From Anaeramoeba flamelloides (lineage: Eukaryota; Metamonada; Anaeramoebidae), in the NCBI GenBank assembly GCA_027625915.1, contig JANTQA010000021.1, positions 2,356,001 to 2,420,000 of the forward strand: 64,000 bases of DNA, given 5' to 3'. A program made the position numbers and the translations under genes. The notes under the pieces are model-generated. The model saw nothing but the letters and a program-made list of their open reading frames with translations, ran no database searches and had not been told where the DNA came from. The first letter of the stretch is position 1, and each line of letters opens with the position of its first letter. Positions 4,157 to 50,000 of this stretch are shown here, one piece after another.

Positions 4157-7100
4157 ACTTACTCATAATCCAGCTTTATTTCAAGTTCAGATTTTAATGG
4201 TAATAAATGCTGATTATTGTCTATTTTCTATTTAAATAATTATAAGAATAAGAAATAAATTTTTAAAATAATTATTTATAAATATATACATCTGAAATTT
4301 TTTTTATAAAATTTATTAAATAAATAATTGTGTTTCAAATTTGTTATTAAAACATTAAAAACTGATTTTTATCCAAATATTCAAACATTAAAAGGGATGT
4401 TTGTTTGATTTTTTACTTATATTTAACTATTTAATTGGAAAAATAAAATGATTTCATTTTTATTCTAATTAAAGTCAAAATTTTTAAAATTCTAACTTAA
4501 ACACAAATATAAAATATATTGTGAATTTTATTTAAAGTTGTTACTTAAAATTAAAATGAACTAAGCAAAATAGATAATATTTCTTTTAACCCTAATAAAA
4601 AAAAAAAAGATTTTATAACAATCATATATCATCTTAATAACATAACTCTTGTTAATATTATGATTTTTTTCATAAAAAATAATAATAAAGTTTTTATAAG
4701 AGAATATAATTTTGGGTTTATTAGTCATTTTTTAATTGAAAAAAATTAAATATTAAGTAAAATATCTTAACATTTTTCCAGATGATTTGATCTTGATAAT
4801 GGAAGGAACAAATATCAGAAATTGACAAAAAATTAATAATAATACATATAATTATCAAGAATTTGTAATGAATCCAATTATTGATCAATCTCTAAAATCA
4901 AAAAAAAATATCTGAAATTTAATATTTAGAAATTTGGCTTGAAAAAGAGAAATATTTACAAATAAAACTTTTAAAAAATAAAAGATAGTTTTAAAAAAAA
5001 ATTATTTTAAACAAAAAAAAATTTAGCTAAAGGTGCAAAATTACAAATGTTTAAATCGATAATCATTTCATCAAATATTCTCTGTCCTAGTAATTTTTTA
5101 ATCTAACTCAAAAATATTTCGACTAAATAGATGCTTGGATCAATAAAAAAAGTCACAAAATTTTTAAAAATTAATGCAAATTCTTCAAGAATAATTTATA
5201 ACTATCAAGCCAAAAAAGAACAAAGTTGAATTTCAATTTATAAAAGAAGATTTAAACTCAAAAAGAAATTAGAAATTCTTAGCATATATCAAAAAATTTA
5301 AAATTTTCAAAGAATAAATAATGAAAATATCAACTTGGAAGTAGAAAACTTATTATTATTAGATATAAATCTTAATCGATTTAGAAAATCTTTATTAATC
5401 CATATCTCTGGATGGAAAGGTCAGGAATATTTAAAAATTATTTGATATAATAATAATATTAATAAAAAATCATGTAGTCAAGTGATGTAGAGTGTCGTCA
5501 AGCACCTAGGTTTTTTTTTTAATTTGAGAAAAGAAAATTTCAGAAATTTTCTTTTTATTTCTTTATTTAAAAAAATCCTTTCGACACTTTTCCACAATTC
5601 AAAAAAATAGGGGAAAATCTTTGATTTTACTCGATTCTTTCAAATTAAAAAAAAAAAACAGAACATTAAGTGTCGCAGAGTGTCGTCAGGTACCGTAGAG
5701 TGACCAACTTTTCCAGGATCTAAAATAATTTCCGAAAAGATTTAATTTTTTACTCTATTATTTTAAATTATGGAAAATCTTATGCGTTTTATTTGCAATT
5801 CAAAAAATTCTACTATATTCTTTTAAATTTTGGAAAATCTAATGGCAATTTTCTCGAGGTTTTTTTTTTTTTTCTAAAAATCTAATGACTTTTGGAATAA
5901 AGACAAAACTCAAAAAAAATAATGATATTTTTTTTATAATTCAAGAAATTCAAAAAAAAAACTCAAGGTAAATATGATAAATGTAGTTTTCATTTCTTTA
6001 GTCAAAAAAAAGAAAAAAAAAAATTAAGTTATTTTATAAATATAATACAATTATAAAAAAAAAAAAAAAATCGAACCTTTGTATAAGAATTTCGTCTAAT
6101 TTTTTCAGATTCTAAAGTTAAAACTTTTTCTTTTAATTTTAAAATAGAAACTTCTTCTTCTTCTTTAATTACTTTAACATCTGTTTGAAATAAAAATGAG
6201 TGTAGATGAGTTGTTAAAAATAATATCGAACGTTTCCATTGAATACAAACGGATGGCCAATTTTTGATTTTTTTAATTGTTTTTTCTAATAAATCCCAAT
6301 GATATCTATTTGTTGTTTTTGAATGGATGTAAATGTTGAATAAACACTATTTATTTAAATTTATTCAATTGTATTGATTTTATTAATTATTATTTTATGA
6401 TTTTTTTGAAAAAAATAAAGATTAATTAGTAAAAAAAAAAAACAAAAAAAGAAAAAGAAAAAGAAAAATGAAAAGGGAAAAAAGTGGAATAAATACATTT
6501 GCCAAATTCCCAGATAGTTTGTATTGAAGAGAGTTTTGATTTTTCAAAAAAATATTTTGAAGAAATTGCTGGGTAATATTAATAATAATTTCTATAAGCA
6601 CATTCCAAGTTGACTTTGTGAAAGTAGAAACACTTTGATTTGTAATTAAATTAATCAAATTTAAAACTCTTTTATATCTTTCAACTAATATTTCAATTCC
6701 TTCTTGTTTATGTTCAAATAAAATTGATTGTAGTAAATATTTTACTATTGATTGTGCATAATATTGGATATTATTTCTAATTGTCGGGATTTTTTTTAAA
6801 TTCTAATTAAAATATTATTTTTTATTGTTTATTGTTTATTGTTTATTGTTTTTTGTTTTTATAAAAAAGAAGTTTTGTATTAAAAAATTTTTAATAAAAA
6901 GTAAAAGAGAGAGTAATATAATTATGAGAAGAGACTACAATTTAAATGATATTTTGTAAAATTGTGACTCACATGGTAAAAATAAATTGAAAAAAAAAAT
7001 AAATACTTTAGTATTCAAGAACAACAAATAATTAAATCTTATTTATAATTCACTTTTAATTATTATAAAATACAGAAGTCTGGTATTTTGAAAGTTAAAA

Positions 7101-10100
7101 AAAAATAAAACCAAGAACTGAAAAAAAGTGAGTCACAATTTTTGAAATGAGCATTACAGATTTTTTATTACTGAAATTTCACTAAAAAAAGATTAAGAAC
7201 AAGATTTTTTGCTAAAAATTTCATTGGTTTTTAAAATACATTACATAATCTCAATTTTCTAAATGATTATTGTTCTTTCCGAAGATCTTTTTTTTTTTCG
7301 CCTGATCTTTTGCAAAAAAAAACAATAAAAAAAAGAAAAAGAAAAAATCCAAAAAAAAATAAGAAAAAGAAAAAGAAAAAAAAAGTGCTACAAGAAAAAA
7401 AAAAGAAAAGAAAAACAAAAATTTGAAAAAAAAATTCTGATCCAAAAAGTTGGCAAAATTAAACAAAATTTGATTCCGATCTAAAAATTTGAAAATATTT
7501 TTTGTTGAGAAAACTGTTATAAAATCCAACAAAAGAACTTCCAATAGCATTATAAAGTAAGTAAACATTTTTGAAAAATAGTTTAGTTTATTTGATCTCA
7601 ATGCTAATTGTTTCTATTGAAAATTTAATCAATTGTTTTGAATATTCGAAAAATGGATGAATTCAGATACAATATTAATTATTAGCTGACATTAATTTAA
7701 ATTTATAACTTGATTGTTTATTATGATGCAATTTTTTATTTTTAATAAAAATTATTCAAATTTTATCAAAAAGTTTCCACCTGAAATGTTATAATGAAAA
7801 AAAAAAAAAAAACGAATGAATTAAATAATTATAAAGACCAGATACATAATTTTTTTCTAATCAATATATCAAAACTTAGAATTTCCAATTTTTTGAATTA
7901 ATTTAAATTTTCTTTTGTAAATTGTGATTCTTGCTGAATCAAATTTTGGCTTTTGTTTTATAAATAAGCCCGAGGTGATGTGGGTTGTTTAACAAGGATT
8001 TGGCAATTTTTTGGTATTGATTTAGCTATCTCTTTTTTTAAAGACAATTTCTCAAATATTCGTAATCCATATAATAATTGACTATGTAAAACAGCTTTCA
8101 AAAATTGAATTTTTTAATCCATTAGAAAAATATTGTTTTGTATAAGATATTGATTAATTTTTTAAAATAGTATCAAATTTATCAAGGTACAGCTTTAAAT
8201 GAGTTTTTTTTTAATCTAGTCAAATACTAAGAGATCAAATTTCTTTTGGTATTTGTAGTTTTTTTTGTTATTTTTATCATAATTCGAATTCGTTCCAAAA
8301 TCTCTAATAATTTTAAATATTTTTATGTAATTGATCAATTGGTGTTTTAGGGTTAGTTTAAGGTATGTTGGGGTGGGTTAAGGTTTGTTATGGTGTGTTT
8401 GGATGGTTTGGAGGTATATTTGGGGAATTTTAGCTAGGATTTTGTAAAAAAAATAATAATTAAGTGAGTAATTAGGCTTGTGTAACTTTTTTTAAGGGGT
8501 GAAAATTTTCCACTTATCTTTGTTGTTAAAATTGGGTTTTGAAAAAATTTCTCAAAATATTTTGTATTGATGATTTTATAATTTTGGATTTTCCAGAATT
8601 TAAGTAATAAAATACTACCAATCATAAAATAATCTTTTTTATTTTTCTTCTTACAATTATTAAAAAAACATAAAAAACTTTCATACCTCTAAAAAGTATC
8701 CGGAAACTCTTATAAAATACAAAAAAAATCAATTTTCCCAATTTTGAAAATTAATTATATATTCTTTTTTTCTATTATCAATGACCCTTTCAATATTAAT
8801 ATCATTGTTTCAGTTTTAAAAGAGTTAAATTATTATTTTCATAATAAAAACTCAAAAAAATTTGAACTTTGATTAAAACTTAATTTTTATTTTTTTTTTT
8901 ATTTTGAAGGGAGGAAATTAATTTCCTCTTACAGCCGTTAGGTTTTTTTTCATTTTCGAAATAAACCGAAAATTTTTCTATTTTTCTGTTCATTCCAAAA
9001 AGTAAAAACAACTGCCGTTAGCTTTTCCAAAATTTAAAAGAATTGAGTAAAATCGTAGATTTTGTTCAATTCTTTTGAATTCTGGAAAACATAGGCACTT
9101 TCCGTTGAGTTTTTTTTCATTTTCGAAATAAACCGAAAATTTATTTAATTTTCTTTACATTTCAAAAATTAAAAAAAACCGCCGTTAGGTTTTCCAGAAT
9201 TTCAAAAGATTGAGTTAAATCTTTTGATTTTTCTCTATTCTTTTGGATTTAGAAAAACCGCCGTTAGGTTTTCTTGGGTTTTCTGCTTTATTTGAAAAAT
9301 CAATAGATTTTCTAAATAAAATAGAAAACCTCAAAAAAACCTTGAACACTTGACAAATAAAATAGAAAATCTCAAGAAAACCTAGGCAATTGACGGCACG
9401 AGACGGCACTTATCCTAATTTCTAAATTTTTGTTTAGAAATTTTAATAAAGAATCATAATTTTCTTTATCATTAACCAATGATAGGATAAATAAAGAGTC
9501 TTTATTTTGAATAATATAAAAGATATTATTCTTAATATTTTTGTTTGTTTGAATTACTAGTTTAATTCAAAATTTTCTATTTTTTTCATAGAATGGGCAA
9601 TTCCATAAAAAATGATCGATATCTTCATCTATTTCTGAGTTATGGTATTTTTTTGCATAGATTGAAAGAATTTGTTTTTTATTTTATTCTTATTGTAAAC
9701 ATAAGAATATCTATTGATGTAATTTGTGAAGTTTCTTAGTTTTAGAATGGAAGTTGAACCTTTACATTTTAAATATTTTTTGTCGTCAGGTTTTTTTTAA
9801 TTTTAGATATTAAAAGAAAATTTCAAAAATTTTCTTTTTATTTCTGAAATTAAAAAAAACCTAGGCACTCTACGGTACTCTACGGCACTCTACGACATGA
9901 CTGTTTATTTATGTTATTGTTATACCTGATAATTTTTAAATATTCTTGACCTTTCTATCCAGAGCAATTTATTATCAAGCTTTCTCTAAATTGGTTTTAT
10001 ATTTAATTCTAATAATTTTAAGGTGACTATTTCCCAATTAATATTTTAAATTTTTTTTTGAAAATTTCAAAATCTTTGGTTTTGAATATATGTCCAAAAC

Positions 10101-13100
10101 TCAGAATTTCTAATTTCTTTTTGGGTTTATATCTTCTTTTATATATTGAAATTCTGATTTAGTCAATTTTTGCTTGAGTTTTATGTATTATCCTTGGGGA
10201 ATGTGTATTAATTTTTTAAGAATTTTGTTACTTTTTTATTTATCCAAACACCAATTGAGTTGAAGTCTTTTTGAGTTAGATTAAATATAACTAACCCATA
10301 AAATAACTGGCTAATATGTATTGATTTAAACATTTGTATTTTTACTCCATTAGCTAAATTTTGATGGCTAAAAATCATCTTTATTTTTTTGAAAGTTATT
10401 TTTAACTTTTTTGTAGTTTTCTCTATTTCAAATTCAAATTCCTAAATATTTTATTTCTGATAATTGGTTTGATTTTAAGGTTTTATCAATTTTTAGATAA
10501 AGAATTTGAATTTTGAGTGTTTTTTTGTAATTTCTGATTATAGCAATTTTAAAATGGGGTGAACAAAAATCTTCAAAATTCTTTATAAAACAGTTAATAA
10601 GCTCCAATGTAACCATTTTCAGGACTTTATTAAAAAAAGTTTTTTGTTTTTTTTTTTTTTTATTTTTTAACGGAGGAGTTGTTAATCCCTCTTGTTGGCC
10701 CGAATTCCTAAATTTTAATTTAGAAATTTTAATAAAGACTCGAAAATTAGTCTATTACCCACGAGTGATAATAAATATATTGAATCTTTTTTAATAATAA
10801 TATTAAAAATATTATTATTATTTAATATATTAGATATATTAATTTTTTTTAATTCAGATATCCAAATTCTACGATTATTTTCAAGACTGGGCAGTTCCAG
10901 AGAAAATGATCCAAATCTTCAATGATATCCAAATTTTTTGATTTTTTGCATAATTTACAAAATTTTGATTTATTTTTATTCATAACATAAGAGTATCTGT
11001 TTAGATAATTTGTAAAATTTCTGAGTTTTAAAATCGAAGTGGAACCCTTTCATTTTAAATATTTTTTGTCGTTAGGTTTTTTTAATTTAAGAAATGAAAA
11101 GAAAATTTATTTAATTTTCTTTTTATTTCTCAAATTAAAAAAAACCTAGACACTACTGTTTGTTAATATTATTTTGAATAGAAATTATTTTTAAATATTT
11201 ATGAACTTTCCAACTGGGACTATTTTCTAGTTGTTTGATTCTATATTTCTCAAGTTCAATTTCGAGTTCTTTTAAGGTGTTCGTTTGCGAGTTAATATTT
11301 TCCAATTTCTGCTCTCTAAATTTAAGATTATCAACTATTTGATTAAAATCCAAAATTTTTAATTTTTGAATTAGTTTAAATCTTCTTTTATATATCGTTA
11401 TTCTTGCTGTGTCGATTTTGGCTTCTGTTTTATAAATAAGTCTGGGAGAGTGTGGATTTATTAATAAAAATTTTGTTATTTTTTTATTTATCCATACATC
11501 GATTGCATTGAAGTCTTTTTGTGTTAGATCAAATATTTCTAATCCATATAATAATTGACTATATGTAAAACGCTTTAAAAAAATGAATCTTTAATCCATT
11601 GGTGAATTTTTTTTGTTGTAGGATATTAATTAATTTTTTAAAATTGGTTTTAACTTTGTCCAAGTTAAACTTTAAGTGGGTTTGTTTATCAAGCCAAATC
11701 CCAAGATATAGAATTTCTTTCGGATTTGTAGTTTTTTTAGTTTTATCCTTATTCGGATTCATTCCAAAATCTCTAATCATTTTAAATATTTTCTCTACAT
11801 GATAATTTATTTCTATTAGCGATCCCTTCATAATTAATATCAAGTCATCTGCAAACATTTGTACATGTATTGCTAATGGTTTGAGTTTATCTAAAAGAAC
11901 ATGAGTAATAAATCCAAATAATAAGGGAGACAGAGGATCACCCTGATAAACACCAATTCCTTCTTTTGAATAATAAGCTAATAAAAATTTTACAATAATT
12001 TCATTTTTTATAAATTTTTTAATTGAATGATAGATTAAAGAATGATGAATAGAGTCAAAACATTTTTGTATATCTATTGTAATAATATAAATATTTTCTT
12101 TTTTAAATTTATTTTTGATTTTGTTAAATTCATTAAATAAATTTAAAACTACTATTCTTGTATCTAGTTTTTTTTTGAAACCAAATTAAAAAAAGAAAAA
12201 AAAAAGTTTTTTTTGATCACACTTTTTTAAAACAACTTGATTATTTTTTAAAGTTTATCAAACTATAAAAAAAAAATTATTTCTTACTTTAAACCAAAGA
12301 GTAATTTGATCTAATATCATTGAAACACAATTTTTGGAAGTGATAGGCAAAAGTAGTGCTTGGCGAAAAATTTCTAAAATCAAATCCATATTTTGTGGAT
12401 CATCATAAAAAATATAACATAAATTATCATTATTCATCCAATTAATAATAAATTTCACGATATCTTCTTGTAATTCATAAGGGCAATGATTTCGGAATCC
12501 AGTTTCTTTTCAATGATTTTTTTGATTAAGAAAAATAATAAAATTTAAGAAAATAAAAATAATTATAACAATTGTTAAACTGGGAAGAAGAATAATAGAA
12601 TTGTATTTTTTTTTTATTTATTTTACTTTGTTTACTATCAAGTAATTCTAATTTTTCGGAAACGATTGGATATAATGTTGTTAAAAAACATTTTTTCATT
12701 ATTTTGAACCAAAATTCTTTGTTTTTGGACTTTTCGACAATAAAGGAAATGAACTTTTGGAAAATCATTCTTCTTTCTTCTTTTGAATCTGGTACTTTTT
12801 CTTTTCTACTGATTTCTTCAATTTCAACTATTATTAAGTAAAGTGATTTTCAAGAATGAAAATAGACATGAAGATTATTTTGTTAAAAAAAAAAAAAAAA
12901 AAACTGTAATAAAAATACATTTGAAAAAAAAAAAAAATGTAACATTTAAAGGGGGGGGGGTATTACGTTTATTAGGAGGCGTTTTAAGTGTTATTTTTTC
13001 ATTTGGGAAATCTTTAATGAATGAATCAAAACAAATTGAACTTTCTAAAGCTTCAAATTGCTTTGAATCACATTTCACATTTAAAGTGTCCATAAAAGTT

Positions 13101-19235: not shown

Positions 19236-19236
<1 letters not shown>

Positions 19237-21808: not shown

Positions 21809-24800
21809 TTATTTTTTTTTGAGCCATTTTCTAAATTTTTTATTTTTAAAGGTATCTTTTAATTTATTACCAGCTGTCCAACGGCGTTTAGAATCGTTCA
21901 AATTTACAATTTTACCTTTCCCATAAATAGCAATTGAAGAAGAATTTGATTCTAAAGTATTTTTGTCAAAGATCATTGATTCAAAGGTATTGAAACCTTC
22001 TTTATATTGTTCCTTTTTTGAATTTGACTTCAAAATTTTGATGCAAAAGGATTTGTCTAAAAGGGCATAATAAACCTTTGACAATTTTACGAAAATAAAC
22101 CAGGTAATTTTTCGATTTGTATTCAAATCTGATTTTCCGTGCTTCATGAAGATCATATTCAATTTCACAAACATGGAATTATCTGTGAAAAAGTCTATAA
22201 ATAATTGATGAGTTTTCAATAATTGGAATTGCTTTTCATTTTTATCGATGGGAGAAATTTGATTAAGGAGATTCAGTTTTTTCAAATGGTTCTTTTCTGG
22301 CAACATAAACAGTTTATAAATGAAGTCCAACCCATATGAGACAATTGACACTGATGAAACGCTTGATATCATTCCAAGAAAATTTTGAAATTTTTTTAAT
22401 ATAATTAAATGTTGTAATGCATTTGGGTGACTAAAAATCAAAATATAAAGAAATCTCCAAATGCTCTTTGAAAGTCTATTACTGATTGAAATTTGTGTGA
22501 TTATATTAAATAACGAATAACACTTTTCTCTTTTGAATAAAAATTGGTATATATTTGGTATTTGCAAAAACTTTGTAAATGTTTTTACTAAATAGCATTT
22601 TACTAAATCTAATTCAGTTTTACTATTTTCAATGATTTTAAAAAAAGTATCAAATGAATTCAGATCAATAAAAATTTGCTTTTTAGTAAAGGATTTTAAA
22701 TAGATATTCTTCCCAGTTCCACTGTTACTACGATTGCTCTTATTATTACTAAATTTATTCCGGTTATGGTTTTGAATAATATCTATTTTACAACATAAAA
22801 CCATGGCAAAGGCTAGTTTGTAGATCAATTTGGTAAGAATAATTAACAATTCTGGGGAATATGTGTTGTCATTGATCAGTTTTAAAAGATGTGTCATTAA
22901 TTTTTTGAAAATGGCTGAATCGAGGTAAATCAAATCTTCTTTTTCAATGGTATTTACATTATCTTCATCATTTCTATTTGTTTTTTTCTTTATTAGATTT
23001 ATATTATTCATGCTTTTACTTTTTAGGTTTTCCGCCTTAATTTTTTTTGTAAACCTGTTACTGTTCCTGTTATTGTTCCGGTTCCGGTTCTTGTTAATAT
23101 CCTTATCCCTGCACCCATCACCATTCACATCCTTATTATTATTTTTAAAAATTTTAATTAAACTATCAAAGTGATTTATTAATAAATTTGAATATAAAAT
23201 TGTAAAATCTGTAATTTTTGCAAAATTATTATATTTATTTTTGACGACAATAAAATTTTTTGATAGTATAAAACTAATATTTTTTTCAAAATATGACATT
23301 ATAAAATTTTTAAAAAATTTTACTTTAAAAAGACTGTTAAAGATAATTTTTGCAGCATATCTTACGTGGCTAATTTTACTTTTTAATAAAGTATTTAAAT
23401 GATTAATAAGTTTATAATTATTCGTAAAATAATATTCCTTGAAGATATCAGAAAAATTGTTTTGAATGATCAGAAGAAATATTATTAGATAATATCCAGA
23501 AACCGCAACTGATCTACAATTTATCCCTTTCCAAATTTCTTGTTGAAAAAATAATTTATATTTTTTTGATATTTTTATAAACATATTTTGTACTTTAGTT
23601 AATTCTTTTTTAATATCTCTTGAAATCGATAAATATAAAAATTTTTTTTTTGGAACTAACATCGGCTCAAGAATATGATGAATATAATAATAAACAAATA
23701 ATTTAAGCTCTAATTCCCAATTCTTTTTTCCAAAAATTTTTAAAGAATATTGCTTTGTTTCTTCATTATAAGGATGAATATTAGATACATTGCCATCGAG
23801 GAAATTCATCGCATAAGAAATATAATATAAACTTTGGATATCATTATTTAAAGAATAATTAACAATGATTTTTGTTCCAATGTGTGATTCTAATAATCCC
23901 GTAATAAAAAATGATGTCTATAGGATATTTTTTTTTTTTTTTTGTTATTATTAAAAGTAGAATAGGAGAAAATGATAATAAATTAATAAATTAAAATAAT
24001 TTCAATTAAATAAAAATGTTGTTAAGAGTTTAAGTAATGAAAAAAAAAACTAAAGTTATATTATATTTCCCAAGAAGAAATGGAATATAAAAAGTGACAA
24101 AACAAAAATCTATCAAATATGATAGAGTACAGTTGGTCAATTTTTTTCACTAAAAAACAAAAACATGTTTGGATGAAAAATTCCTACTTAAGGGGAGTTT
24201 CGTTAAGTATCGTTAAGTAACGTAGAGTGCTGTAGAGTGCCGTAGATTTCTGTTTTTTTTTTTAATTTGTAAATGTCCTAGAGTGCTTATGTTTTCTTGA
24301 GGTTTTCTGTTTTATTTGTGAAGTGTTCTAGGTTTTTTTTACTTTCGAAATAAACAGAAAATTTATTAAAATTTTCGGTTTATTTCGAAAGTAAAAAAAA
24401 CCTAACGAAAATCTATTGATTTTTTAAATAAATAGAAACCTCAAAAAAACCTAAGCTATTTCCAATAATATAGGGCATTTTTTATTTCAATAATTATTTC
24501 TTAATATTAATTCAATTATACAAAATGTACAACAATAATATGTTTTTTAACATATCATACTTAATTTCTTGTATTTTGAAGTTTTATTAATGGATTCTAA
24601 ATTTTTTTTTTGAATTAAAATTATTTTGCAAAATTTTTAATTTTGAAAAAATAATAGAGTCAAATTTCTCATTTCATTATTTTTTCGAATTCTTCATTTT
24701 TTTCATTTTTACTTTGTTATTATTATTGTCCAAAATTTAACAAAGTTCAGAAGAGATGTGATAAGAAATCAACCAAAAATTCTTTTGATTCTAAACAATT

Positions 24801-24972: not shown

Positions 24973-27900
24973 ACAAAAAAAGTTAATGGGAAAAAAAAAA
25001 GTTAATGATCAAATGAAAAACAAAAAATCTAAAGATCAAATCAAAAATATATTGAAGTATGATTTTACACATTATAAAAAAAAAAAAATTGAAAAAAAGA
25101 TCGAACTAAAGATTGTTAAATAGACATTACTAATTTTGGATATTTTTCCAAAAATTAGGGGCAATTTTTTTTTTTTATTTTTATTTTTTATTCTTCGAAC
25201 TTTGATCAATAAACACAAATTTTAATCAAGAGTTTTATTATTATTAATGGCTTCGTTTTTTTTTGTCTAAAGTTTTGATTTTAATAACTGAATAAAGAAT
25301 TTATTCTTATATTAATGGATATTTTTTTGCCCCACATTTTTGGATGGAGCTTAGAACACTTGACAAATAAACAGAAAACTCAAGAAATCCTAAAGGCGCT
25401 TTTCGAGAATTCAAAAGAATAGAGAAAAATCAAAATTTTACTCAATTCTTTTAAATTCTGGAAAAGCTATTGCTATCTTTTTTAATTTCAGAAACAAACC
25501 AAAAATTTCTTAAATTTTCTTTTTATTTCTTATATTGAAAAAAACCTAACGGCAGTTTTTTTTTTACTTTTTATTTTTGTTTCTAAAATCTATTGATTTT
25601 CTAATCAAAAGAAAAATTAAAAAAAATCTAATGGCAAATATGAGGTAATTTTGCTGAATCGCCTCTCTTCATCAAAAATAAATAAAAATAAAATAAAAAA
25701 AATAAATAATAATTATAATAATAAAATGAAATTAATTTTTAATTTGGATTCATATATTTTTAAAAATATTTTAATAAAATAAAGAATATAATCTGCAAAT
25801 AATGAATATTAAAAATTTTTTCTCTTATTTTTTTTTTCTTCTTCTTCTTTATTCTCCTTTTCATGCATGAATAATTCAATTTTTTATTATCTTCATGGCT
25901 TAAAAATGATTGTAATTATATAAAACTCTTCTGTTAATGCAATTCTTTGAATTTATTTCCTTTATTGTTTCTATTTCTCTCTCTATCAAATTTTCAGACT
26001 CAAATAAACAATAATTTAAAGTAAGTCAATGTAAGGATTAAAAATAAACATGTTAATATTTCTACTATATCTAACAACAATAACTAAACTTTGTTTCAGT
26101 CAAAGGGACAAAACATTTTTTTCAAATATCAATTATTTTATATAATTGGCCTTTGAAGAACAAATAAGAAATAATCAGAATAATAAACCTCAAAGAATTG
26201 TTGATATACGTCTGATTGAAAACCAATTAATCAATAGATTTTCTTAAAAATTTGAAAAACTCAAATTCTTTTAGCCCCATTGAGAAAAACAAAAATGTTC
26301 GTTTTGACCTTCTACTGGTATTTGAATAATAAATATGAAACATTTTTCACTTCATTTTCCAAACTTTTCTTTGACAAATCAAGTCCCCAAACGAAGTGTG
26401 TTGGTATTTGTGGTCTCTATTTGAAAAAGGAAATGAAAATGAAGTGAAAATTTTTCACTTTTATTAAACAAATATCAAGATCAAAGATCGAATAGAATTG
26501 CAATAGAAATCAATATGATTTCTCAACAATCATTTCCATGGTTTCAATGACCTTAGAATAACACGTTTTTACCAAGTGACTATTGATCTTGTGATAAAAA
26601 AATTTTTTGCAACTGAATTAGGTTTGAAAAATAAATCGAAAAAAAAAAAAACAAAAATGTGCAAAAATGTGATTTCTATTTTGAAAATTTCTAAAAAAAA
26701 ATTTTTCTACTAATATCCATGCAAACCCATTAAACACATTTATTTCACTCATTACAACTGGGCCACTTTGACTGAAAAATAGTTTATAACTGAGAATTTT
26801 TCAAAATATTAATTTTTACTATAATAATAAAATTTCCTGATTATCATTATAACTATCAAAATAAATCAAAATAAATAAATAAATAAAAATAACAAATCAA
26901 AAAAATCAAAAATCAAAAATCAAAAAGAGAGTTACCTTTGAATGTGTGAGTAACGAAATGGAATGATGAAATAATTGCAAAATTTGTTTTAAATTTGTTG
27001 TATTTATTATTGAATATATTGCTTCTGAAAACATTTTTTGTGACAATTTTTCAAAAACTGTTTCATTCATCAATTGGATGAAGATATCTAACGGTAAATC
27101 TGATGTCAAAAGTGAAAGAATTAGCTCAATTTTGTCAAGATTTACATTATTTGAAAAATGGTCTTTTATTGATTGGATTTGGAGATTTAATTTGTTTTGT
27201 AAAAATTTTTGGGGATAATATGAAGAATTTAATTTGGTAAATTTATATTGGGATTTCAAATTATTTAAAGATCTTTTCATTTTTAATTGATAACTCTTAT
27301 TTTTAACTGAGTGCAAATCTATTGGTCCATCATTTTCATAGTTTGGAGCCCGATATATAACTTTGTTGCCATTAATTGTGTAGGGACAATCAACACTTTT
27401 TGATAATAGACTTCCAGAAATATCATTTCTCCGAAGATAAAAATTTGAAAAAGTTCGGGAATTAATTTGTTTCTTTCTTTGATAAAAATTTGTTGAATTT
27501 TTTAATTGTCCGTGAAGTATACCAATTACTCTAAAAGATTTATTTTCATCTTTTTTTTTAATATTTTCATTTAGTGATTCGAGAAGTTCTTTCATTAAAT
27601 AAATAGATTTGGAATTTGGCAAAATTTTATTTTGTTTGGTTGTGGAAGATATAATATTTCCATCAATTTGTGATTTTTTAAATTGAATTTGATTTTTTCC
27701 ATTTAATGAATATTTACCCTTTCGGTAATTATCTTGTTGTTTGCTATTTTTTAAATGAGCTGATTTGAATAGATTTAAAAGATACTGTTGGGTGATTTTA
27801 GTCTGGAAGCTAGTTAAGGCATTTAGCCCTTGCTTGGGTGAATATAATAAACATCTCTTATGAAAATTTATTATAAACGGTCTATAAGAATTTGGATATT

Positions 27901-31300: not shown

Positions 31301-33700
31301 GGGGTTTATTTTTTTATTTTGAAGAGGTGAAATTAATTTCCTATTACAGCCGTTAGATTTTCCAGGATCCAAAGGAATGGTGCAAAATCTTAGATTTTAC
31401 TCAATTCTTTTAAATTCTGGAAAACCGCCGTTAGGTTTTTTTTACTTTTTGAAATTAAACTGAAAATTTATTTAATTTTCGGTTTATTTCTTGATTTAAA
31501 AAAAAAAGCTGTTTTTCTTTTCCAGATTTTACTCTTTTTTTTGAAATTCAGGAAAACAGCCATTAGTTTTTCTTGAGTATTCTTTTTATTTGGAAAATCA
31601 ATGGATTTTCGTTAGGTTTTTTTGAGTTTTCTATTTATTTGTGAAATGTTCTAGGTTTTTTTGAAGTTTTCTATTTTATTTGGAAAATATATTGATTTTC
31701 GTTAGGTTTTTTTTGAGTTTTCTATTTATTTGGAAAATAGAAAACCTCAAAAAAAACCTAGAACACTTCACAAATAAAACAGTAAACCCCAAGAAAACCG
31801 CCGTTAGTTTTTTTTTGATTTGAGAAATTCAAAGAAAATTTCAAAAATTTTACTTAATTCTTTTGAATTAAAAAAAACTGCCGTTATCTTTTCCAGGGTT
31901 CAAAAGAATTGAGTAAAATCAAAGATTTTTCTCTATTCTTTTGAATTCTGGAAAATCTAGGCACCCTAAGGTACTTGAAGGCACTTTCCTAATTTCTAAA
32001 TTTTTGTTTCAAAATTTTAATAAAGAATCATAATTTTCTTTATCATTAACCAATGACAAGATAAATAATGAGTCTTAATTCCGAATAATATCAAGAGATT
32101 ATTCCTGTTGTTTTTGTTAATTTGAATTAATTCTTTAATCCAAATTATTCCATTTTCTTTATAGAATGGGCGTTGTTAGGTTTTTTTAATTTAAGAAACA
32201 GAAAATTAAATAAATTTTCTGTTTATTTCTTAAATTAAAAAAAACCGCCGTTAGCTTTTCCAGAATTTAAAAGAATTGAGTAAAATCTAAGATTTTACGC
32301 AATTCTTTTAAATTATGGAAAAACTAGGCACTTGACGACACGATCCCATAAAAAATGATCGATATCTTCATCTGTTTCAAGGTTGAAATATTTTTTGCAT
32401 AAATTGCAAGATTTTGTTTATATTCTGTTCTTATTATAAACATAAGAATATCTGTTTAGGTAATTTGTGAAATTTCTTAGCTTTGGTATGGAGGTTGAGC
32501 GTTTCCATTTTAAATATTTTTGATGTTAGGTTTATTTATATTGTTATTATACCAAATAATTTTTAAATATCCCTTGACCTTTCCATCCGTTACTATTTAA
32601 AAAAGTTCGAAAAACACTTATAAAGTATTGCTCAAACTATTTTTTTCACTCTTTTAAGCAGTTTGTAAATCTGATTGAACTTTATTTTTTACAATGGCTG
32701 TAGTAAATTAACTTTGTTTGAAAGTTTTTTGTAATTATTTTATACAGCAATTTCTAAATTAATTTTAGATGGTAACCTGTATTTTTGAAAAAACAAAATT
32801 CCTTTCTTGGGTTTTTGTAACTTAATGAGATCTCTTTTTCTGAAAAACATTAAATATTTAAAAAAGTTCTAATTTTGTTTTTTTATTTTGTCTTTTGTCT
32901 TGAGCAAAAAAATAAAAAAGAAATAAATTGGTTACAAGTAGAGAAAGACTTACCATTGACAATTCTTTTTTTGTGAATTTTTTATATTTTAATTGGCTGT
33001 TCCCTGTTTGAATTGGTTGAAAATCCTGAGTATTGTCGAAAGAATTTTCGTTCTCGAAATCTGAAATAATTTCTTTTTGGGGGAAATTAAAATTCTATTA
33101 CCAGAAGTAAAAAGTGTGTTGGTTTTTTGTGTTTCAGTATGCCGTAGTGAAAAAAACAAAAAAGATGAAAAAAAAGTTTCGGTCCTCTCAAAGAGCTTAT
33201 GAATAATAAAAAAAAAAAAAGAAAAAGAAAAAGTCGTTTACTTGGTTAAAGAGGTATGGTCTATAATAGTGGTTACTTAATGGTTTTGGAAGAACAAATT
33301 TGCTCAATTTTTCTTCCATTTGTTCTTTCCATTTTAAGCAAGCCTTTTCGAATTGCATAAAGTTTTCAAAGTTTTTAATCCGAGGGAACTCAAGCCCACC
33401 AACAATCAGATCGACTATTTTTGGTTTTGGATATTTTTTGGTCATATTTTGGATAATTTTTGATTGGATCAAATGTTCTTGTGTAATGACCTGATAATTC
33501 TGATCATAAACAATTCCTTTGTTATCTAGAAATAGTTTTTCATTTAAGCCCAAAGATCTTTGTCGTTGTCCTATTGTTTGATTTTGGATCCCCTGAAGAG
33601 GGTTGTATTGACCTTAATAAGAGAAAAAAAATAAAAAGATTTTTATTCTTTGGTTTGGTTGAAGAAAAAGGGACTTAAAAAGAAACGGATGGTTACTCAT
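21809..33700 (-). CDS. Five-exon gene for 1324-residue protein of unknown function (armadillo-like C-terminus)
   Basis: Exons inferred from continuous frames and matching phases: 33697-33700 (ATGA only), 33242-33612, 32954-33094, 26936-28285 and 21809-23917. Donors are GTAACC, GTAAAC, GTAAGT and GTAACT; acceptors end TAG or AAG. Coding sums to 3975 nt. Residues 82-98 (NFENFMQFEKACLKWKE) and 211-223 (KTFQEYEKALWRW) repeat a short motif, 'F..(Y/F)EKA...W', each followed by a Pro-containing stretch; this may be a small repeated adaptor motif. Residues 230-550 are basic and Ser/Asn-rich. From about 555 the chain becomes helix-rich with hydrophobic periodicity, including IHHILEPMLVPKK and HVRYAAKIIF, like armadillo or HEAT repeats, interrupted by an Asn/Arg-rich insert. 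It ends in a very basic tail, KKFRKWLKKK. I do not recognise the family. Introns of 4.7 and 3.0 kb carry LINE and palindrome arrays. Confidence 0.8.
24190..24462. repeat. Palindrome array in intron
   Basis: Tandem decamers (CGTTAAGTAACGTAGAGTG... near 24200-24245), then a nested structure whose core (24331-24402) is an almost perfect palindrome around AAATTTATTAAAATTTTC with arms ACTTTCGAAATAAAC and its complement. No LINE sequence touches it. Confidence 0.75.
25345..25640. repeat. Palindrome array in intron
   Basis: Contains GAACACTTGACAAATAAA, a GAATTCAAAAGAATAGAG palindrome (25405-25465), an AATTTCAGAAACAAACC palindrome (25480-25550) and a TCTATTGATTTTC arm. No adjacent LINE sequence. Confidence 0.7.
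26083..26795. mobile_element. Tc1/mariner-like element remnant (ends only)
   Basis: Right end CTGGGCCACTTTGACTGAAA...AGTTTATAA is the complement of a left end CTAAACTTTGTTTCAGTCAAAG at about 26086. The same terminal sequence bounds 39181-39763. No transposase frame remains. Confidence 0.4.
28308..28389. repeat. (TA)n(TG)n microsatellite
   Basis: TA run then more than 30 TG units, about 22 nt upstream (minus strand) of the acceptor of exon 26936-28285. Translating it gives a false Cys-Val polymer. Confidence 0.96.
28568..28825 (+). other. Unsupported 85-codon plus frame in intron
   Basis: A frame from ATG at 28568 to TGA with fairly protein-like composition (start MLFKIKQLFFIFLDQNCFIS). It lies in the 4.7-kb intron of the minus gene. 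No splice signals or family resemblance; listed only so that it can be checked. Confidence 0.15.
29262..29435. repeat. Repeat D, inverted partner of 30575-30740
   Basis: TTAATTGTTAGAACCTTACTG, GATTGAAACTT-like and GCGAACCCAAAGTAAACC blocks recur as complements at 30575-30740 (e.g. CAGTAAGGTTCACACAATTAA). About 170 bp each, moderately diverged. Confidence 0.42.
30498..30560 (-). mobile_element. Very short LINE 3' tail
   Basis: Poly(T) at 30505-30522, TATTTTGAAGG, then GGAAACTAGTTTCC and CTCTTACAGCCCGAATT: the LINE 3' terminus with nothing else of the LINE attached. Either an extreme 5' truncation or a short element using the same tail. Confidence 0.6.
30770..31304. repeat. Dispersed repeat C, copy 1
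   Basis: Shares the block order AGTTTTTCCACACAG, ATATGAAAATCATTTTTTCAT, AATAGAAGAACTC and TGTTAATATTT with 58500-59040, over more than 500 bp. Noncoding; a LINE tail starts immediately after it. Confidence 0.55.
31348..31981. repeat. Longest palindrome array, in LINE 3' UTR
   Basis: Six or more modules with GCCGTTAG linkers, including a nested block (31575-31800) in which TTTTTTTGAGTTTTCTATTT arms pair with AGAAAACCTCAAAAAAACC copies, followed by two more simple palindromes. Ends GGCACCCTAAGGTACTTG-type decamers; LINE sequence restarts at 31985. Confidence 0.78.
32170..32343. repeat. Two-module palindrome insert in LINE
   Basis: Two clean palindromes (about 32179-32251 and 32256-32330) joined by CCGCCGTTAG, bounded by GTTGTTAGG and CTTGACGACACG. 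Flanks AGAATGGGC and CCATAAAAAATGATCG are contiguous apart from a few bases in the sister copy at 9590-9620. Confidence 0.8.
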
Positions 33701-34058
33701 TTCTTCTGTCCGAATTAAGAACAGAAAAAATTAAAGAAAACTCGAAGTGAAAAAAGAATAATGAAAAATGATAATCTAAATTGTATTTCAATTACATTTA
33801 TTAAATTAAGGAAACAAGATTATTTTGAAGTTTGTATTGTAGTCTCATGTTGAAAAAACTTTGTGAATTCGTATAGTGTGACTAAAGAGGACTTTTATTG
33901 TCAAAAAAATTCATAATATTTGAAATCTGTTATTTTTACTGGTTTTGGAATAAAATAAGAGAAAAAAATTTTTGCTTCGACTATTATAATTTATTTTTTT
34001 ATGAACTCCCAAAGAATTAGTCATAAAATTGTATTTAACTTTATTTGGTCTTTTCTTA

Positions 34059-34254
34059 CAGTCAGTTTCACTTTTAAGGCACAAACTTCCAACGAAATTT
34101 AAGGCACAAAAAAAATCTCAAATTAAAGCACAAAATTCAAATTCTAGAAAAATAAATTGTAAAAAAAAAATTCCAAATTTTGTGCCTTAATTTGAGATTT
34201 TTTTTGTGCCTTAAATTTCGTTGAAAGTTTGTGCCTTAAAAGTGAAACTGACTG
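34059..34254. mobile_element. Near-perfect foldback MITE, TA-flanked
   Basis: 196 bp, beginning CAGTCAGTTTCACTTTTAAG and ending with its complement; TA on both sides (34057-34058, 34255-34256). Arms of about 85 bp, each with three copies of an AAGGCACAAA-type motif. Tc1/mariner-type by the TA target and CAGT ends (inference). Lies about 360 bp upstream of the start codon at 33700. Confidence 0.75.
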
Positions 34255-34324
34255 TATTTTTTGATTATTTTTTGAGAACTAAGAATCATAAAAGAATAAT
34301 TTCAATATCGGGGGCTGGTAGCTA

Positions 34325-34694: not shown

Positions 34695-34868
34695 TTTTTT
34701 TTTAATTTTAATTTGAGAAATTAAAAGAAATTTTCTTAGATTTTATTTTTATTTCTTAAATTAAAAAAATCAACCATTATTTTTTCCAGAATTTCAAAAG
34801 ATTGAGTAAAATCAAAGATTTTTCTCTAAACTTTTAAATTCTAGATAAGCTAGCCACTCAACTGCATG
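34695..34868. repeat. Two-module palindrome array
   Basis: An AATTTGAGAAATTAAAAG palindrome (34712-34768) and a CCAGAATTTCAAAAGATTGAG palindrome (34782-34850), followed by CTAGCCACTCAACTGCATGTG, a decayed linker, and then LINE 3' sequence. Confidence 0.68.
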
Positions 34869-35275
34869 TGACAGTAAATCCCAAATTTCTAATTTTTTGT
34901 TTCAAAATTTTAATAAAGAATCATAATTCTCTTTATCATTAACTAATGACAAAATAAATAATGAATCGTTTTTTGTTAAAATATTAGAAATATTATTATT
35001 TTTTAAAATATTAGATAAATTAATTTTTTTTAATTCAGATATCCAGATTTTTGATTTTTTTCATCAAATGGGCACTCAATAAAAATATTTTTCTTATATT
35101 CATCACTTTTACAATTGAATTATTCTTGCATAAATTACAAGATTTTATTTTTATTTTATTCTTATCATAAACATACGAATATCTATTTAGATAATTTGTG
35201 AAATTTCTTAGGTTTAAGACGGGAGTATAACTTATCCAATACAAATAATTTTTGTTCTTTATTATTTAAAAAATT
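34869..35275 (-). mobile_element. LINE 3'-region fragment
   Basis: Shares the run from TTTCTAAATTTT through TTAACTAATGACA and the zinc-knuckle region with the copies at 9416 and 31985. Flanked on both sides by palindrome arrays (34695-34868, 35335-35870). Confidence 0.62.
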
Positions 35276-35334: not shown

Positions 35335-35870
35335 AATAATCACAGATTAAATGAATTTTATAAGAATATTTATTAAATATTCTTTTTATTCCTCAAATTA
35401 AAAAACAAAAATGTTGGGTTTTCTTGAGTTTTAAAAGAATTAAAAGAAATCATATTATTTTACTCAATTCTTTTGAATCTCCAAAAAAAATCTATTTAGT
35501 TTTTTATTTAATTTTAGACATAAAAGGAAACTTTTATCAATTCTCGGTTTCTTACAAAAATTAAAAAAAAACTTAATGGATATCAATAGATTTGAAAATT
35601 TAAAAAAAAAAAAAAAACTGGTACTCTAAGGTACTCGACAGTACTCTTCTGACACTTTTCCTTTAGTTTTTTTTTTTTTTTTGTTTGATTGAAAAACCAA
35701 TAGATTTTCAAAACAAAAACCTCAAGAAAACTTCTTTTAAATTTCCTAGAATTTTAAAAAAATTAGTACAATCTTTTATTTTTATCTATTCTTTAAAATT
35801 CTGGGAAAGATAGGCATTCTACGGAAATCTACTGCAATTGGTAGCAATCAATGGTACTCTACAACAAAAC
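35335..35870. repeat. Decayed palindrome array
   Basis: Several imperfect modules (35395-35500, 35505-35580, 35660-35820) with decamer linkers at 35615-35655 (GGTACTCTAAGGTACTCGAC) and 35815-35865. More diverged than the other arrays. Confidence 0.6.
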
Positions 35871-35984
35871 ATTTTTTTTTTTATTTTTACATAATTAAAA
35901 AAATTTTCACCTACTCATTTGAGACCAAACTCAGAGATATCTCAACATTTTAAGTTTTGAATAAATTAACCAATGTTAACAAAA

Positions 35985-39157: not shown

Positions 39158-39188
<31 letters not shown>

Positions 39189-42100
39189 CTTTTTCAATCA
39201 AAGGGGCCCAGTTTTATTGAAGAAATGGAAGACATTCTATGAGTTTAATTCATTACTCTTATCAAACTAAAATTTTCAATTTTTCGATCAAAATCATTTT
39301 TTCTCATTTTGCAAAATTTTGTTTTTTTTGTTTTTTGCTTTTTGCATTTTTTTTTTTTTTTTTTTTTTTTTCTTCTTTTCTTTTTTATTTTTTTTTTTAA
39401 AAATTAACTTTGAAAAAAAAAATGTTTGAAAAACGAAATAAACATTAAGAAAAGTTAAGCTTTGTATGTTCTTTTAAAATTCATACATTTACAAGTAAAA
39501 AATCTTATTATCAACAATTTTAATTTCCTAAAGAAATTGAGAATTTTGCACGAGACGTTCAAATGATAGGGGCCCAAAAAATTTTTTAACATTTTTTTTT
39601 TTTTGAAATTTATGGTTTGTTCAGGTGTTTCTTTTATAATTATGGACTCTTATAAGAAGTTTATTATTTTTCGTATTTCTAAACAATCTAAGTTTGGTTG
39701 ATTCTTAAAAATAAAGTGACTTTTTCATTTTTGGCTGGGCTACTTTGAGTGAAATGGAGTTTATATATATATATATATTATTTTGAAGGGTGGAAACTAA
39801 TTTACTCTTATTGTCGTGGGTTTTTTTTAATTTTCTGTTTATTTGGAATATTAATGGATTTTCGTTAGGTTTTTTTGGGTTTTCTATTTATTTGGAAAAT
39901 CAATAGATTTTCGTTAGGTTTTTTTTACTTTAGAAATAAACCGAAAATTTTAAGAAATTTTCGGTTTATTTTCTAAAGAAAAAAAAACCTAGAACACTTC
40001 ACAAATAAAATAAAAAACCTCAAAAAAACCTATAACAATTAACAGATAAAAGAGAAAACCTCAAGAAAACCACCCTTATCTTTTCCAAAATTTAAAAGAA
40101 TTGCTAAAATCAAAGATTTTGTCTCTATTCTTTTGAATTCTGAAAAAGCTAACGGCGGTTTTTTTGAATTTTTGAAATAAATAATTCTATAATAGGAAAA
40201 ATTAATTGATTCCTATTAAAGATATTTATTAAATTTAAAATGTATTTAAAAAATAATGAAATAATCTCTTAACTGTGAAAAAAAAATATTCAATCTTTTG
40301 ACTATTAAATTTAAAAAAAAAAATCTTATTAGAACCTGGAAAATTGGATTTTTCAACTTAAATTGTAAAATATCTTGAAAAATAATTTTTGATCCAGATT
40401 CTTTTATTAACAAATAGTGTTATTTATAAGTGAGGTTATTGAAAAGTGAAAAATTAGCAAATATTTAATTTTTTTTTCACAAAATTTTTGCAGGATCGTG
40501 AACAATATTTAAAAAATCGATTTTTTTTTTGAAATCCTATTCATGGTTAAAACTTTTTGGTATAATGTATTGATTTATTCAATTAATCCAATTTGATGAA
40601 TTGCTTTTTCTTTTATTTTTACTTTTTGTTTACAAATTCTTTTTCTTTTCAAATTCTTTTTCATTTTTGAATTTTAGAATTTTTTTGAAAAATTTTTTGT
40701 TTTTTGTAAAACATTTTGCTTTAAAAAAGCTAAATCTGTAAACGATCTTTTGGATCCAAAATTTGTTTTTTTGTTTTACTTAGTTGAACATTGCTCGGTG
40801 GGATTTAACACAAAAATCTTATTATCAAATAAATTCAATGTTTTAAAAGTTAAAACAAATACTTAATTACTTTGAAGTTTTTTAATAAGATTAAAACGAT
40901 TAATTCAAAAGATAAGAAAAATGACTTTAAATAATATGTTTTTGATAAATATCTCCCTATTGGACTGAAATGTGGTATAATCTGGCGTATTTAACATAGT
41001 TTAATGTGCTAACCAATTTATGTAAAATTGTTTTGATAGTAAAAAAATAATAATAAAGAAGAAGAATTCTTTTACTAATTTCTAAAATTATTCTAAAAAA
41101 CATTTTAATATGTGTAACAATAAAATGTTTTTTAAAATAAAATTTCAATAAATAATTATTCTTCATAAACTTTTGTATAATTGCTAATCTTAATAAAACA
41201 AAATAATTTTTTTTTCAAAAAAAAAAAAAAAAAACCTGTTTATAATATTAAGAGATCTTGTAAATGATAATTTCAAAATGGAAAAAAGAATGAAAATGAA
41301 ATTGATATTAAAAAAAAAAAAAAAAAAAAAGCAACTAACCAGTTCCTGGGAAATACCCATATCCATATTTATGAAAACTACAAGTCATAACTCGGTTTGT
41401 TTTTTTAAAAGCTTCTTCAACACCATCTCCGTGATGAATATCAATATCGATATATAATACTCTAGGATGATATTTTAATAATTCCAAAATTCCTAAAACA
41501 ATATCATTCACATAGCAAAATCCCGATGCTTCTTTTTTTTTAGCATGATGAAGGCCGCCTAATCGTTATATATGTATATATATAATTTTTATAATGAAAT
41601 TATAAGGAAAAAAATCATATAAAAAATAAAAATAGGAATATTAAATGAAAAATAATTGCTAAAGAGTTAGCAGGATTTTTTTTTTCTAATTTTATTTTAA
41701 TTTCGTTTCGTTATTTATATTTACTGTTTCCAAACTTTTAATGAAAAATAGAAGATTTTTATCTTCAATTAGAAAATAATAGAAAGAAAAAAAAAAAAAA
41801 AAACATAATTTTATTTTTTACAGTCGTTTTAAAAATGTGAGGACTGTTTTTTTTTTAGAAGGATTTTTTAAAACTTTTTTTAGAAGTTTTGTTTTTTAAA
41901 AAAGTGAAAACTTTTTCAGAATGAAATATTTTTGAAAGTTTTCGATTTTAGTAAAGTGGGGGATCAACCTTTAAATACGATGTAGGGGTTGGAATCAGAA
42001 AGAAAGATACTTTTTTAAATAACAGATCACTTTTAAAAAGGTTTTAATTCTGTACTAGAGTATATATGAATGTTGTAAAAAATAGAGTTTTTGCAATTTT

Positions 42101-46330: not shown

Positions 46331-46339
46331 GTGTATTCA

Positions 46340-46920
46340 AGTGGTATAGAGTGCCTAGGTTTTTTTTTATTTCTTAAATTTAAAGAAAATCTGACGACGC
46401 TTTTCTTGATTTTTTCTGTTGTATCTGTTAATTGTTCTAGGTTTTTTTGATGTTTTCTATTTTATTTTGAAAATCTATTGATTGTTTTTAGGTTTTTTTA
46501 GATGTTTTGTATTTATTTGGAAAATCAATAGATTTTCGTTAGGTTTTGTTTTACTTTTGAAAATAAACCGAAAATTTTAATAAATTTTTGGTTTATTTCA
46601 AAAAGTAAAAAAAACCTAGAACACTTCACAAATAAAATTGAAAACCTCAAAAAACCTAGAACACTTCACTTATAAATAGAAACCTCAAGAAACCCTAACG
46701 AAAATCTTTCGATTTCCCAAATAAACAGAAAACTTAAGAAAGGATAACGGCGCTTTTCGAAAATGCAAAAGAATTTAATAAAATCAAAGGTTTTACTCTA
46801 TTCCTTAAAATTTTTGAAGCCCTAACAAAAAATGTCTTGTTTTTTTTTTAATTCAATGCTATAAACTGAAAATTTCTCAAATTTTCTTTTTATTTCATAA
46901 ATTAAATAAAAGCAAACGAA
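46340..46920. repeat. Large nested palindrome array
   Basis: Starts GGTATAGAGTGCCTAGG. It shows a nested core palindrome (46541-46615), paired TTTTTTTGATGTTTTCTATT and GAAAACCTCAAAAAACC arms with GAACACTTCAC spacers, then a GGATAACGGCGC linker and two further modules. Divides two parts of a LINE remnant. Confidence 0.73.
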
Positions 46921-46924
46921 ACTT

Positions 46925-47930: not shown

Positions 47931-50000
47931 CAAGATAGATTTTTTTTATATTTTATTCTTTTCATACAAGTAAGAATATCTGTTTAGTTATTTTTTAAAT
48001 TTTCTTATTTTTAGTATTGAAATAGAACATTTCCATTTTAAATATTTTTTGCTTTTTTTTTTTTTTAATTTGAAAAATGAAAAGAATTTTGCCTTATTTT
48101 CTTTTCATTTCTAAAATTAAAAAAAAACCTGCTTTTAGCTTTTCCAGAATGAAAAATAATTGGGTAAAATTTTTATTTAGTTCTATTCTTTTGAATTCAA
48201 AGGGTGTCCTTTGGTTTTCTAGGGTATTCTGTTTATTTTTGAAAATCTCAAAAAAAATCAAAAAAAAAAAAAAAAAAAGGGTATTTGAGAGTACCTCCGG
48301 TACTAATGTGTACAACTGTTTATTTATATTATTATTATATCAAATAATTTTAAAACATTCTTGATCTTTCTAGAGCTATTGGTTAATAAAGATTTTCAAA
48401 ATCAATAAAGATTTCTCTCTCCTAATTTTAAGTTTTCTACTTCCGGTTTAAAGTTTCATTATCTTTTTAGAAAACTTTAAAATTTTTTGATATATAACTT
48501 TAAAGCCCAGAATTTGTAATTTCTTTTGGGTTTAAATATTTTTTTATAAATTAAAATATTAACTTGGTCGATGTTTGCTTTAATTTTATCAATTATTCTA
48601 GGGGGGGGATGTGTATTAATTTTTAACAATTTTCTAATTGTTTTTATTTATCAAAACAGATACCATGTCGAAATCTTTTTGAGTTGAATCAAAAATTACC
48701 TATCCATAAAATAACTGGCTAATGTATATTAATTTAAAAATTTGTAATTTTATCCCATTAGCGAGTTTTTGTTGGCTAAAAATTTTTTTAATTTTTTTAA
48801 TTTTTTTTTACTTTTTTGAGGTTATTTTATAAATTTTTCTTTTTTCGAACCAAATTTTACATAATTAATAGCATGATAATTTGTTTGATTTTAAGGTTTT
48901 ATCAGTATTTCGATTCATTCAAAATTCTTTGATAATGTTTATAATTATTATCAACTTTTTTTCAATTTCTTGAATAGGTCTTTAGATTATTAAAATTGAG
49001 TCATTTGTAAATTTTTTCTTTTTATAAACTATTTCTAAAAAAGTGTGGCAAATTTATTTTAAAATATATTTATTCAACTAAATCTTCAAAAAAGTATTTA
49101 AAGATACAAAATTATTTACTACTAAGGAATTGTTTCATGATAATTATACAATTTATTTCGTGGTATTGTATTACATTAAAAAAATAGTAAATTATATCAG
49201 ATCACGATTTTATCTGATATTTTTTAGGTGTTAAAATTGGTGTTTTATTATTTTATTTTTGATTGGAAAAATCGTTTCCATAACTTTTTTAATCTCAACA
49301 AATTTTCAAACAGAATCTAAAACAAATGAGTGTATTTGATTGTTTAAAAAATCATTTATAACCATTTCCATATTTTCATTTTTTATTGAAATTTATCGTA
49401 CATCGTTTTCTCCTAAAAAAGTACTTTTTTTTTTTTTCGTTTTTTCGAAATGTTTCAACAAACATATATTGAAACAAATACCTAAGTTATTGGTTCAATT
49501 TTTCTTAAAGTTAAACTTAATTTGATATTGTAAATTAACGAATACCTCCACTAAAAAATATGATTTTTGATGAAATGGGAAAAAAAAATACTCTACTTTT
49601 TTAGAAATACCTTATATATTTTTAAGTATCTCAAATTCAAGGCCATAAGTCGTTTTTCTATTTTTTTTTATACATAAAATGGTAATATTATTCTTAAATC
49701 CAAGAGTATTTGGTCCCTTGATAACTTGGTTCGAGGAATATTTCAAGTATGTTATTAATAGATAATCATCAATAATTTAAGGAAATTGGTTCATACCCAA
49801 CTTTGAGAAGAAATAAAATATTTATGCCATTAATAAATTTATTTTTTCTTGGGTTGGATTATTTATCCAAAGACATAAAGTCTGTTGAATGCGTTTAAAA
49901 AAAAGAGTAAAATAGTCTCTTCTGTATTTTTATTTTATTTTTTTTTTTTTTTTTTTTTGAGAATTTTATTGTATCAAAATCCTTAATTGGTTAATTTTTT
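47931..50000 (-). mobile_element. Decayed LINE copy including reverse transcriptase remnant
   Basis: The left part (47935-48042) and the part right of the array (48312-49030) match the 3' coding region of other copies. Near 49000-48960 the minus strand gives FTNDSILII, a decayed motif C. Upstream pieces at about 49660-49700 resemble an RT finger block. The right limit is uncertain. Confidence 0.5.
48043..48311. repeat. Palindrome array at the recurrent LINE site
   Basis: Lies between TTTTAAATATTTTTTGC and CAACTGTTTATTTATATT, the same LINE site as the units at 9781 and 11070 but longer, with three decayed modules. Decamer-like TACCTCCGGTACTAATG closes it. Confidence 0.68.

Follow-up and report, generated by a model that had tools for sequence, protein, structure and literature searches.

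Both organelles and bacteria harbor mobile hairpins; the GC clusters of yeast mitochondria spread via biased conversion, and the palindromic elements of Rickettsia are inserted within reading frames, in frame, and are translated. The mitochondrial repetitive hairpin elements treated in the part of PMC2800124 used here comprise the double-hairpin elements of Allomyces, the yeast GC clusters and the sponge RHEs. Like the arrays described below they are short, repeated, joined in tandem and sometimes located inside genes, and flanking duplications are absent from the Allomyces elements in that account, just as none are evident at the LINE sites studied here. Our arrays differ in being nuclear, in lying inside transposable elements, in carrying a tag per unit and in being nested in hairpin loops. 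Bacterial REPs, in the sections of PMC3733652 drawn on, share the palindromes, a short tag that stays unpaired on one side, close units in opposite orientation and a proposed movement in trans, but they measure 20-40 bp and are mostly extragenic, and RAYT transposases are linked to the GTAG REPs. The introner elements and non-canonical introns of Amoebophrya are likewise inverted-repeat hairpins that spread in protein-coding sequence of a protist; according to the passages of PMC7789003 used, however, they are bordered by direct repeats of 3-5 nt and constitute introns in genes of the host. Finally, the AT-rich genome of Dictyostelium contains 1770 AT-rich palindromes in nuclear DNA, most of them 19-80 bp long, for which the excerpt of PMC10111430 describes no mobile unit, linkers, tags or transposon host. 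The initial annotation of the present DNA knew of no element with this exact build, and our literature search, which was not exhaustive, found none either.

The window analysed here is a stretch of 64,000 nucleotides from Anaeramoeba flamelloides, whose genome comprises 254 Mb in 76 contigs; loci elsewhere in the genome are numbered with the prefix L. The arrays are built from near-palindromic modules of 67-70 bp. All four module types named at the outset are present, with types I and III grading into each other, and the two joining linkers, CCGCCGTTAGS and CTAGGCACT, match their description. The label near-perfect suits some modules and overstates the rest, the median Watson-Crick fraction being 0.94 in type I/III, taken over the 16 of 36 modules that have the modal length, and 0.87 in type II, taken over 27 of 33; an ungapped palindrome scan returned 11 modules, one unrelated palindrome and one (AT)n run. 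In keeping with the predicted hairpins, folding four window modules as single-strand DNA gave z = -8.3, -8.4, -2.9 and -11.8. To this picture we add end tags of 10 bp, an order of nesting, fixed sites in LINEs, a CACTA-like host and conserved mismatches in type II. The latter occur in both orientations: the first pair is C.A in 11 and T.G in 10 of 27 modules, and the second is A.A in 10 of 27, T.T in 5 of 27 and paired in 7 of 27. Arm covariation in type I/III amounts to 16 double-change cells, compared to a shuffled mean of 6.1 and a maximum of 11 (16 of 36 modules), but type II with 8 such cells against 13.6 in shuffles has none (27 of 33 modules), and covariation was dropped as a proof of selection on RNA. 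The window has no Rfam match at the gathering threshold. GTTAGGC/GCCTAAC may resemble integron attC, and GTTAGG might be read as telomere-like.

Within LINEs, arrays lie at three fixed ORF sites (A, B and C) and at the 3' end. Tags are steps of the form GTGYC, about 10 bp long, in tandem at one end of an array, and their number tends to be that of the modules minus one (the tag rule). Module profiles run with nhmmer at 14 bits or more form 12 clusters in the window, corresponding to the thirteen arrays first listed with those at 31348 and 32170 merged, so that every one of them is recovered by profile matches. The features are:

5481..5917, plus strand: array beside a decayed LINE (+; LINE match 4914-5433), site A by eye; profile matches; modules I at 5514-5575, II at 5588-5646 and 5709-5777, partial II at 5807-5837 and IV at 5850-5917
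8936..9390, minus strand: array placed by eye at the 3'-end site of a LINE, order I, II, I, II, IV; LINE match 9411-9969 on the minus strand
9781..9910, minus strand: lone type I module carrying three 10-bp tags at LINE ORF site A, breaking the tag rule; fold z -8.4
10679..11843, minus strand: LINE fragment hosting site A; protein-level match to the LINE of L080
11063..11155, minus strand: lone type I module, no extra tag, in ORF site A of a LINE; fold z -8.3
24190..24470, unstranded: type III hairpin (24333-24400) within a split type IV hairpin, with tag-like repeats at ~24200-24250; fold z -11.8; no host match
25345..25635, unstranded: partial IV, II and I adjoining a LINE-like 3' tail (tail by eye only); profile matches
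31352..31985, minus strand: several type IV levels, some without partner half, in an array placed by eye at the 3'-end site of a LINE
32172..32345, minus strand: I+II array with one tag in ORF site C of a LINE; 9583-9603 is the empty counterpart
34695..34870, minus strand: array of I and II adjoining a LINE, 3'-end site by eye; profile matches
35335..35880, minus strand: decayed array adjoining the same LINE copy as the 34695 array, site A side by eye
39818..40160, unstranded: nested type IV levels around type III, plus II; profile matches
46340..46920, minus strand: type IV levels with III, II and I, adjoining LINE family 2, by eye at site B
48043..48311, minus strand: decayed array (I, II and IV remnants), flanks site A-like by eye

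At 20 bits or more, the window yields 35 modules by profile and 200 kb of genome samples (twenty 10-kb pieces from ten contigs, at hand-chosen places) yield 22, with none in 264 kb of first-order Markov shuffles, where the top score was 10.7. The profile seeds were taken in part from the window itself and otherwise from loci L001-L008 and L029-L068, so the matches in the seed-free samples serve as an independent check. If the samples are typical, the genome of 254 Mb would contain about 28,000 modules (95% range 17,500-42,300). The multi-Mb contigs and a histone deacetylase gene near the arrays place these in the nucleus and not in organelle DNA; this host gene, at 36920-38326 on the minus strand of the window, was recognized by its domain (Pfam E 8e-20).

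By alignment, 17 of 23 arrays lie inside transposable elements, 14 in LINEs and 3 in CACTA-like elements, where the 23 arrays are grouped profile matches of at least 14 bits, 12 from the window and 11 from the samples. As read from the alignment table, the 14 arrays with LINE matches outside the array divide into 9 from the window and 5 from the samples; CACTA-like flanks are found in L009, L010 and at window position 39876. Two further arrays, at window position 25400 and L023:9302, have a LINE-like 3' tail by eye only, the LINE matches of L023:9302 falling within the array, and four are without a placed host (window 24293, L012 and the weak ones at L023:1939 and L026). Note that the library for LINE family 2 retained array sequence, and matches within arrays were disregarded. 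The ORF of the LINE in L080 matches RVT_1 with an E-value of 2.2e-5 and 24.7 bits, under the cut-off of 29.6 bits, and the 91-aa piece of the window's LINE fragment at 11571-11843, taken alone, matches no Pfam family. Several LINE copies end by eye in a GAGG...CCTC mini-hairpin followed by an A-rich tail, as at window 8900-8935, and small palindromes are seen by eye directly 3' of target sites.

The CACTA-like element is non-autonomous and about 900 bp long with the ends CACGATCATGAAAAAAT and ATTTTTTCATACTAGTG (L010:7918-8819, L069-L079); several of its copies, but not all, have a 2-bp duplication. Modules I and II lie mid-element in all 12 aligned copies, 11 of which were chosen from 28 copies matched unbroken through the array, and the ends of the unit are those found at the LINE sites. 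A related element in L009 contains a different array. In L075 the linker between the modules has a longer form, CCTAGGACACTT..CCGTTAGG, with a near variant in L076, and in the other copies it is short and CCGCCGTTAGC-like. A palindromic MITE, about 200 bp long, with termini close to CAGTCAGTTTCACTTTTAAGG and apparently inserted at TA, occurs at window 34058-34256 and in L047 (three copies); one copy interrupts a type I module. A supposed fourth LINE ORF site (query 1063/1137) turned out to be a separate palindromic MITE. With two LINE families and a CACTA-like element as hosts, and with variation in both presence and length, the modules are not just fixed parts of a single LINE; their being only such parts is what the initial annotation had named as its refutation.

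Empty and filled copies of the LINE sites could be compared directly. Site A reads AACAAACA-ACAAAGATATTT when empty and AACAAACAGTCGTGTCTAGG-M-CCTAACGACAAAAGATATTT when filled, M being the module; among the 41 copies listed for a filled query, 18 are empty, 21 are filled (including the window and one B/A fusion) and 2 are rearranged, and the junctions of the filled copies are identical except for point changes. Exact-pattern counts give 84 filled and at least 200 empty copies. Site B changes from GGAAA-GTTCAAAAATA to GGAAATGTCGTTAGG-M-CCTAGGCACTTGACGGCACTCTACGACACTCCTCAAAAATA in reversed orientation, with both filled ends read in L048 and L047 being close, and site C from CTCTGGAACTGCCC to CTCTGTGATCG...CCTAACGACTGCCC. 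For the 3'-end site, L057 and L065 show the empty state and L024 and L096 the filled one, and in L047 and L048 sites A, B and C are all filled. In LINE family 2 an array sits at the position matching site B, with about 6 empty and about 5 single-module copies among 40 scored (from match coordinates only); a third query subfamily, again by coordinates only, has at least 11 empty copies at 93-95% identity against 5 filled ones at 91-100%. Comparison of empty and filled states reveals no evident target-site duplication at sites A, B, C and the 3' end, nor are direct repeats evident at the borders of these four sites. Empty and filled copies differ in GGAA against GTGA at site C and in GTT against TG...CACTCC at site B. 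Because the empty sites B and C thus hold bases that are missing from filled copies, simple excision cannot yield the empty state, which looks ancestral at both sites when judged from these bases. The difference at site A is one A in a run and has less weight for polarity.

The arrays further follow a grammar. Among the 72 parsed arrays that lack type IV, 55 obey the tag rule, 15 have excess tags and 2 too few, and 1 of 4 with type IV obeys it; since the rows include many related copies and a few that look spurious, this is a pattern and not a test. The excess tags could result from repeat slippage. In the recent LINE subfamily K, site C is occupied by one module without tag (L091, L092), two modules with one tag (L094, L095) or three with two (L093). 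Units adjoin other hairpins and also sit in the loops of type IV hairpins, where by eye GATTTTC-GTTAGG-M-CCTAGAACACTTCA-CAAATAA is found as opposed to the uninterrupted GATTTTCCAAATAA.

We consider it about an even chance that the modules are non-autonomous hairpin insertion units that live in transposable elements and are multiplied by their LINE and CACTA-like hosts. One unit would read GTMRAGTGYC-TAGS-(67-70 bp hairpin)-SCTAACGRC, and a new unit would enter at GTGYC^TAGS, directly upstream of the outermost hairpin, at its 5' foot. Each insertion would add one 10-bp tag, so that tags would count insertions. Copying into the same site of other LINE copies may proceed by homing-like gene conversion or template switching, LINE and CACTA-like hosts would multiply the units they carry, and recombination between copies of transposable elements could be the cause of part or all of the spreading. 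By analogy, yeast mitochondrial GC clusters would be the nearest working model. Counted against the hairpin units is that no insertion into unique host DNA was seen. A search that ignored introns found no match to the Y1 transposase (PF01797, Y1_Tnp) in this genome, and 5 of 14 control genomes had matches. A bolder version, which we put forward only tentatively and would sooner doubt than assert, has a gene-free hairpin replicon of about 90 bp as a hyperparasite of transposable elements, which would home to fixed LINE ORF sites and to its own hairpins and be multiplied by its hosts, with the ladder of tags as a tally of its insertions.

The first rival dispenses with a self-transposing unit altogether: the hairpins would be old parts of transposable element families, and recombination alone, through hairpin-induced breaks, gene conversion and template switching, would swap, add and drop modules. 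We regard this as possible but rather unlikely. It is favored by junctions that are identical per site across diverged subfamilies, and by the correlation between module and flank identity (Spearman 0.66; 171 pairs from 19 single-module site A copies, with 26 tried and 7 unparsed), which indicates that much of the inheritance is vertical. It also gains from the array in 12 of 12 aligned CACTA-like copies, though 11 of these were picked via matches spanning the array, and from the chimera at window 39780-40502, where an array links a LINE-like tail (~39780-39815, by eye) to a CACTA-like left end (40159-40502) in the manner of a recombination junction. As for the modules themselves, those of the window and L053 equal that of L056 at 100% over aligned ungapped columns with flanks at only 81% and 80%, the 81% pair coming from two LINE subfamilies, and L052 has a module of another type (II) at site A; these comparisons show that a module's sequence can differ from the ancestry of its flanks. 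Under recombination alone, however, four LINE sites, the CACTA-like element and the type IV loop would each need a first insertion of their own, every time with similar unit ends and without an evident target-site duplication, and the pattern of one tag per module is not predicted.

Subfamily K bears on how filled copies arise. With L065 as query, the best 40 copies comprise 20 filled and 20 empty ones, of which 19 and 10 were compared (L105 was left off the tree, its anchor missing); an empty query retrieves only empty copies among its best 40. Mean divergence is 0.14% for empty and 2.5% for filled copies, and the flanks of the filled L081 are identical to those of the empty L099-L101 over the 402 columns kept. 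The tree implies three state changes, but with 1 of 20 branches well supported and 17 open it decides neither for one origin nor for several. The 19 modules examined at site A are variants of one module, and a filled master therefore fits better than many insertions. Private changes in filled copies (27 silent, 71 replacing, 8 stops) are near neutral, the neutral split being 22% silent, and empty copies have 5 silent and 2 replacing changes; the silent/replacing ratio was dropped as a proof that filled copies are dead, since any dead copy has neutral private changes. The 13 copies filled at site A only have 0-6 coding changes and the 6 copies with more arrays have 5-19 (one-sided p 0.0015, with copies that share descent). 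This age trend, drawn from the best 40 scores, among which old empty copies could not surface, is ambiguous between growth in place and older masters with more modules.

Alternatively, the arrays might be unusual introns whose removal from LINE RNA keeps filled LINEs active, which we consider improbable. Stops in all frames were present in 23 of 24 parsed inserts (38 distinct copies tried); this led us to drop an in-frame translated insert, and together with the mixed insert lengths it sets the arrays apart from the translated palindromic elements of Rickettsia. The insert thus breaks the frame, yet the flanking reading frames are open in many filled copies. From our reading of the junctions, removal up to an ACGA end, starting from GTCG at site A and from TCGT at sites B and C, would keep the frame, and filled copies with one common module have seemingly been multiplied. 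However, insertion at site C alters a W codon (TGG to TGT), empty copies are not products of such a removal, and the private changes of filled K copies are as near neutral as in any dead copy. GT-AG introns in particular were dropped, as no AG fits a GT-AG pair at site A of subfamily K and site B is reversed.

That a cut-and-paste transposase moves the arrays, which would make them foldback elements or MITEs of the ordinary kind, is very improbable, for although they are palindromic with inverted repeats, high in copy number, nested and without visible coding capacity, target-site duplications are not evident at the four LINE sites with empty counterparts and the fixed sites are few. What remains of the proposed foldback family inserting into itself is the second half, as units do occur within type IV hairpins and next to one another; the foldback assignment itself is not borne out, there being no evident duplications and no transposase link, and most placed arrays sitting at a few fixed sites in transposable elements.

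By analogy, the arrays of A. flamelloides would work like the mobile hairpins of organelles and bacteria, and their location and the lack of evident target-site duplications would place them outside some of those families, though not necessarily outside the REPs. The empty and filled LINE copies that exist side by side make the mechanism of insertion testable. A nuclear family of hairpins that resides in transposons, invades their reading frames at fixed positions with no evident duplication and nests in its own members would add a new layer to genome parasitism.
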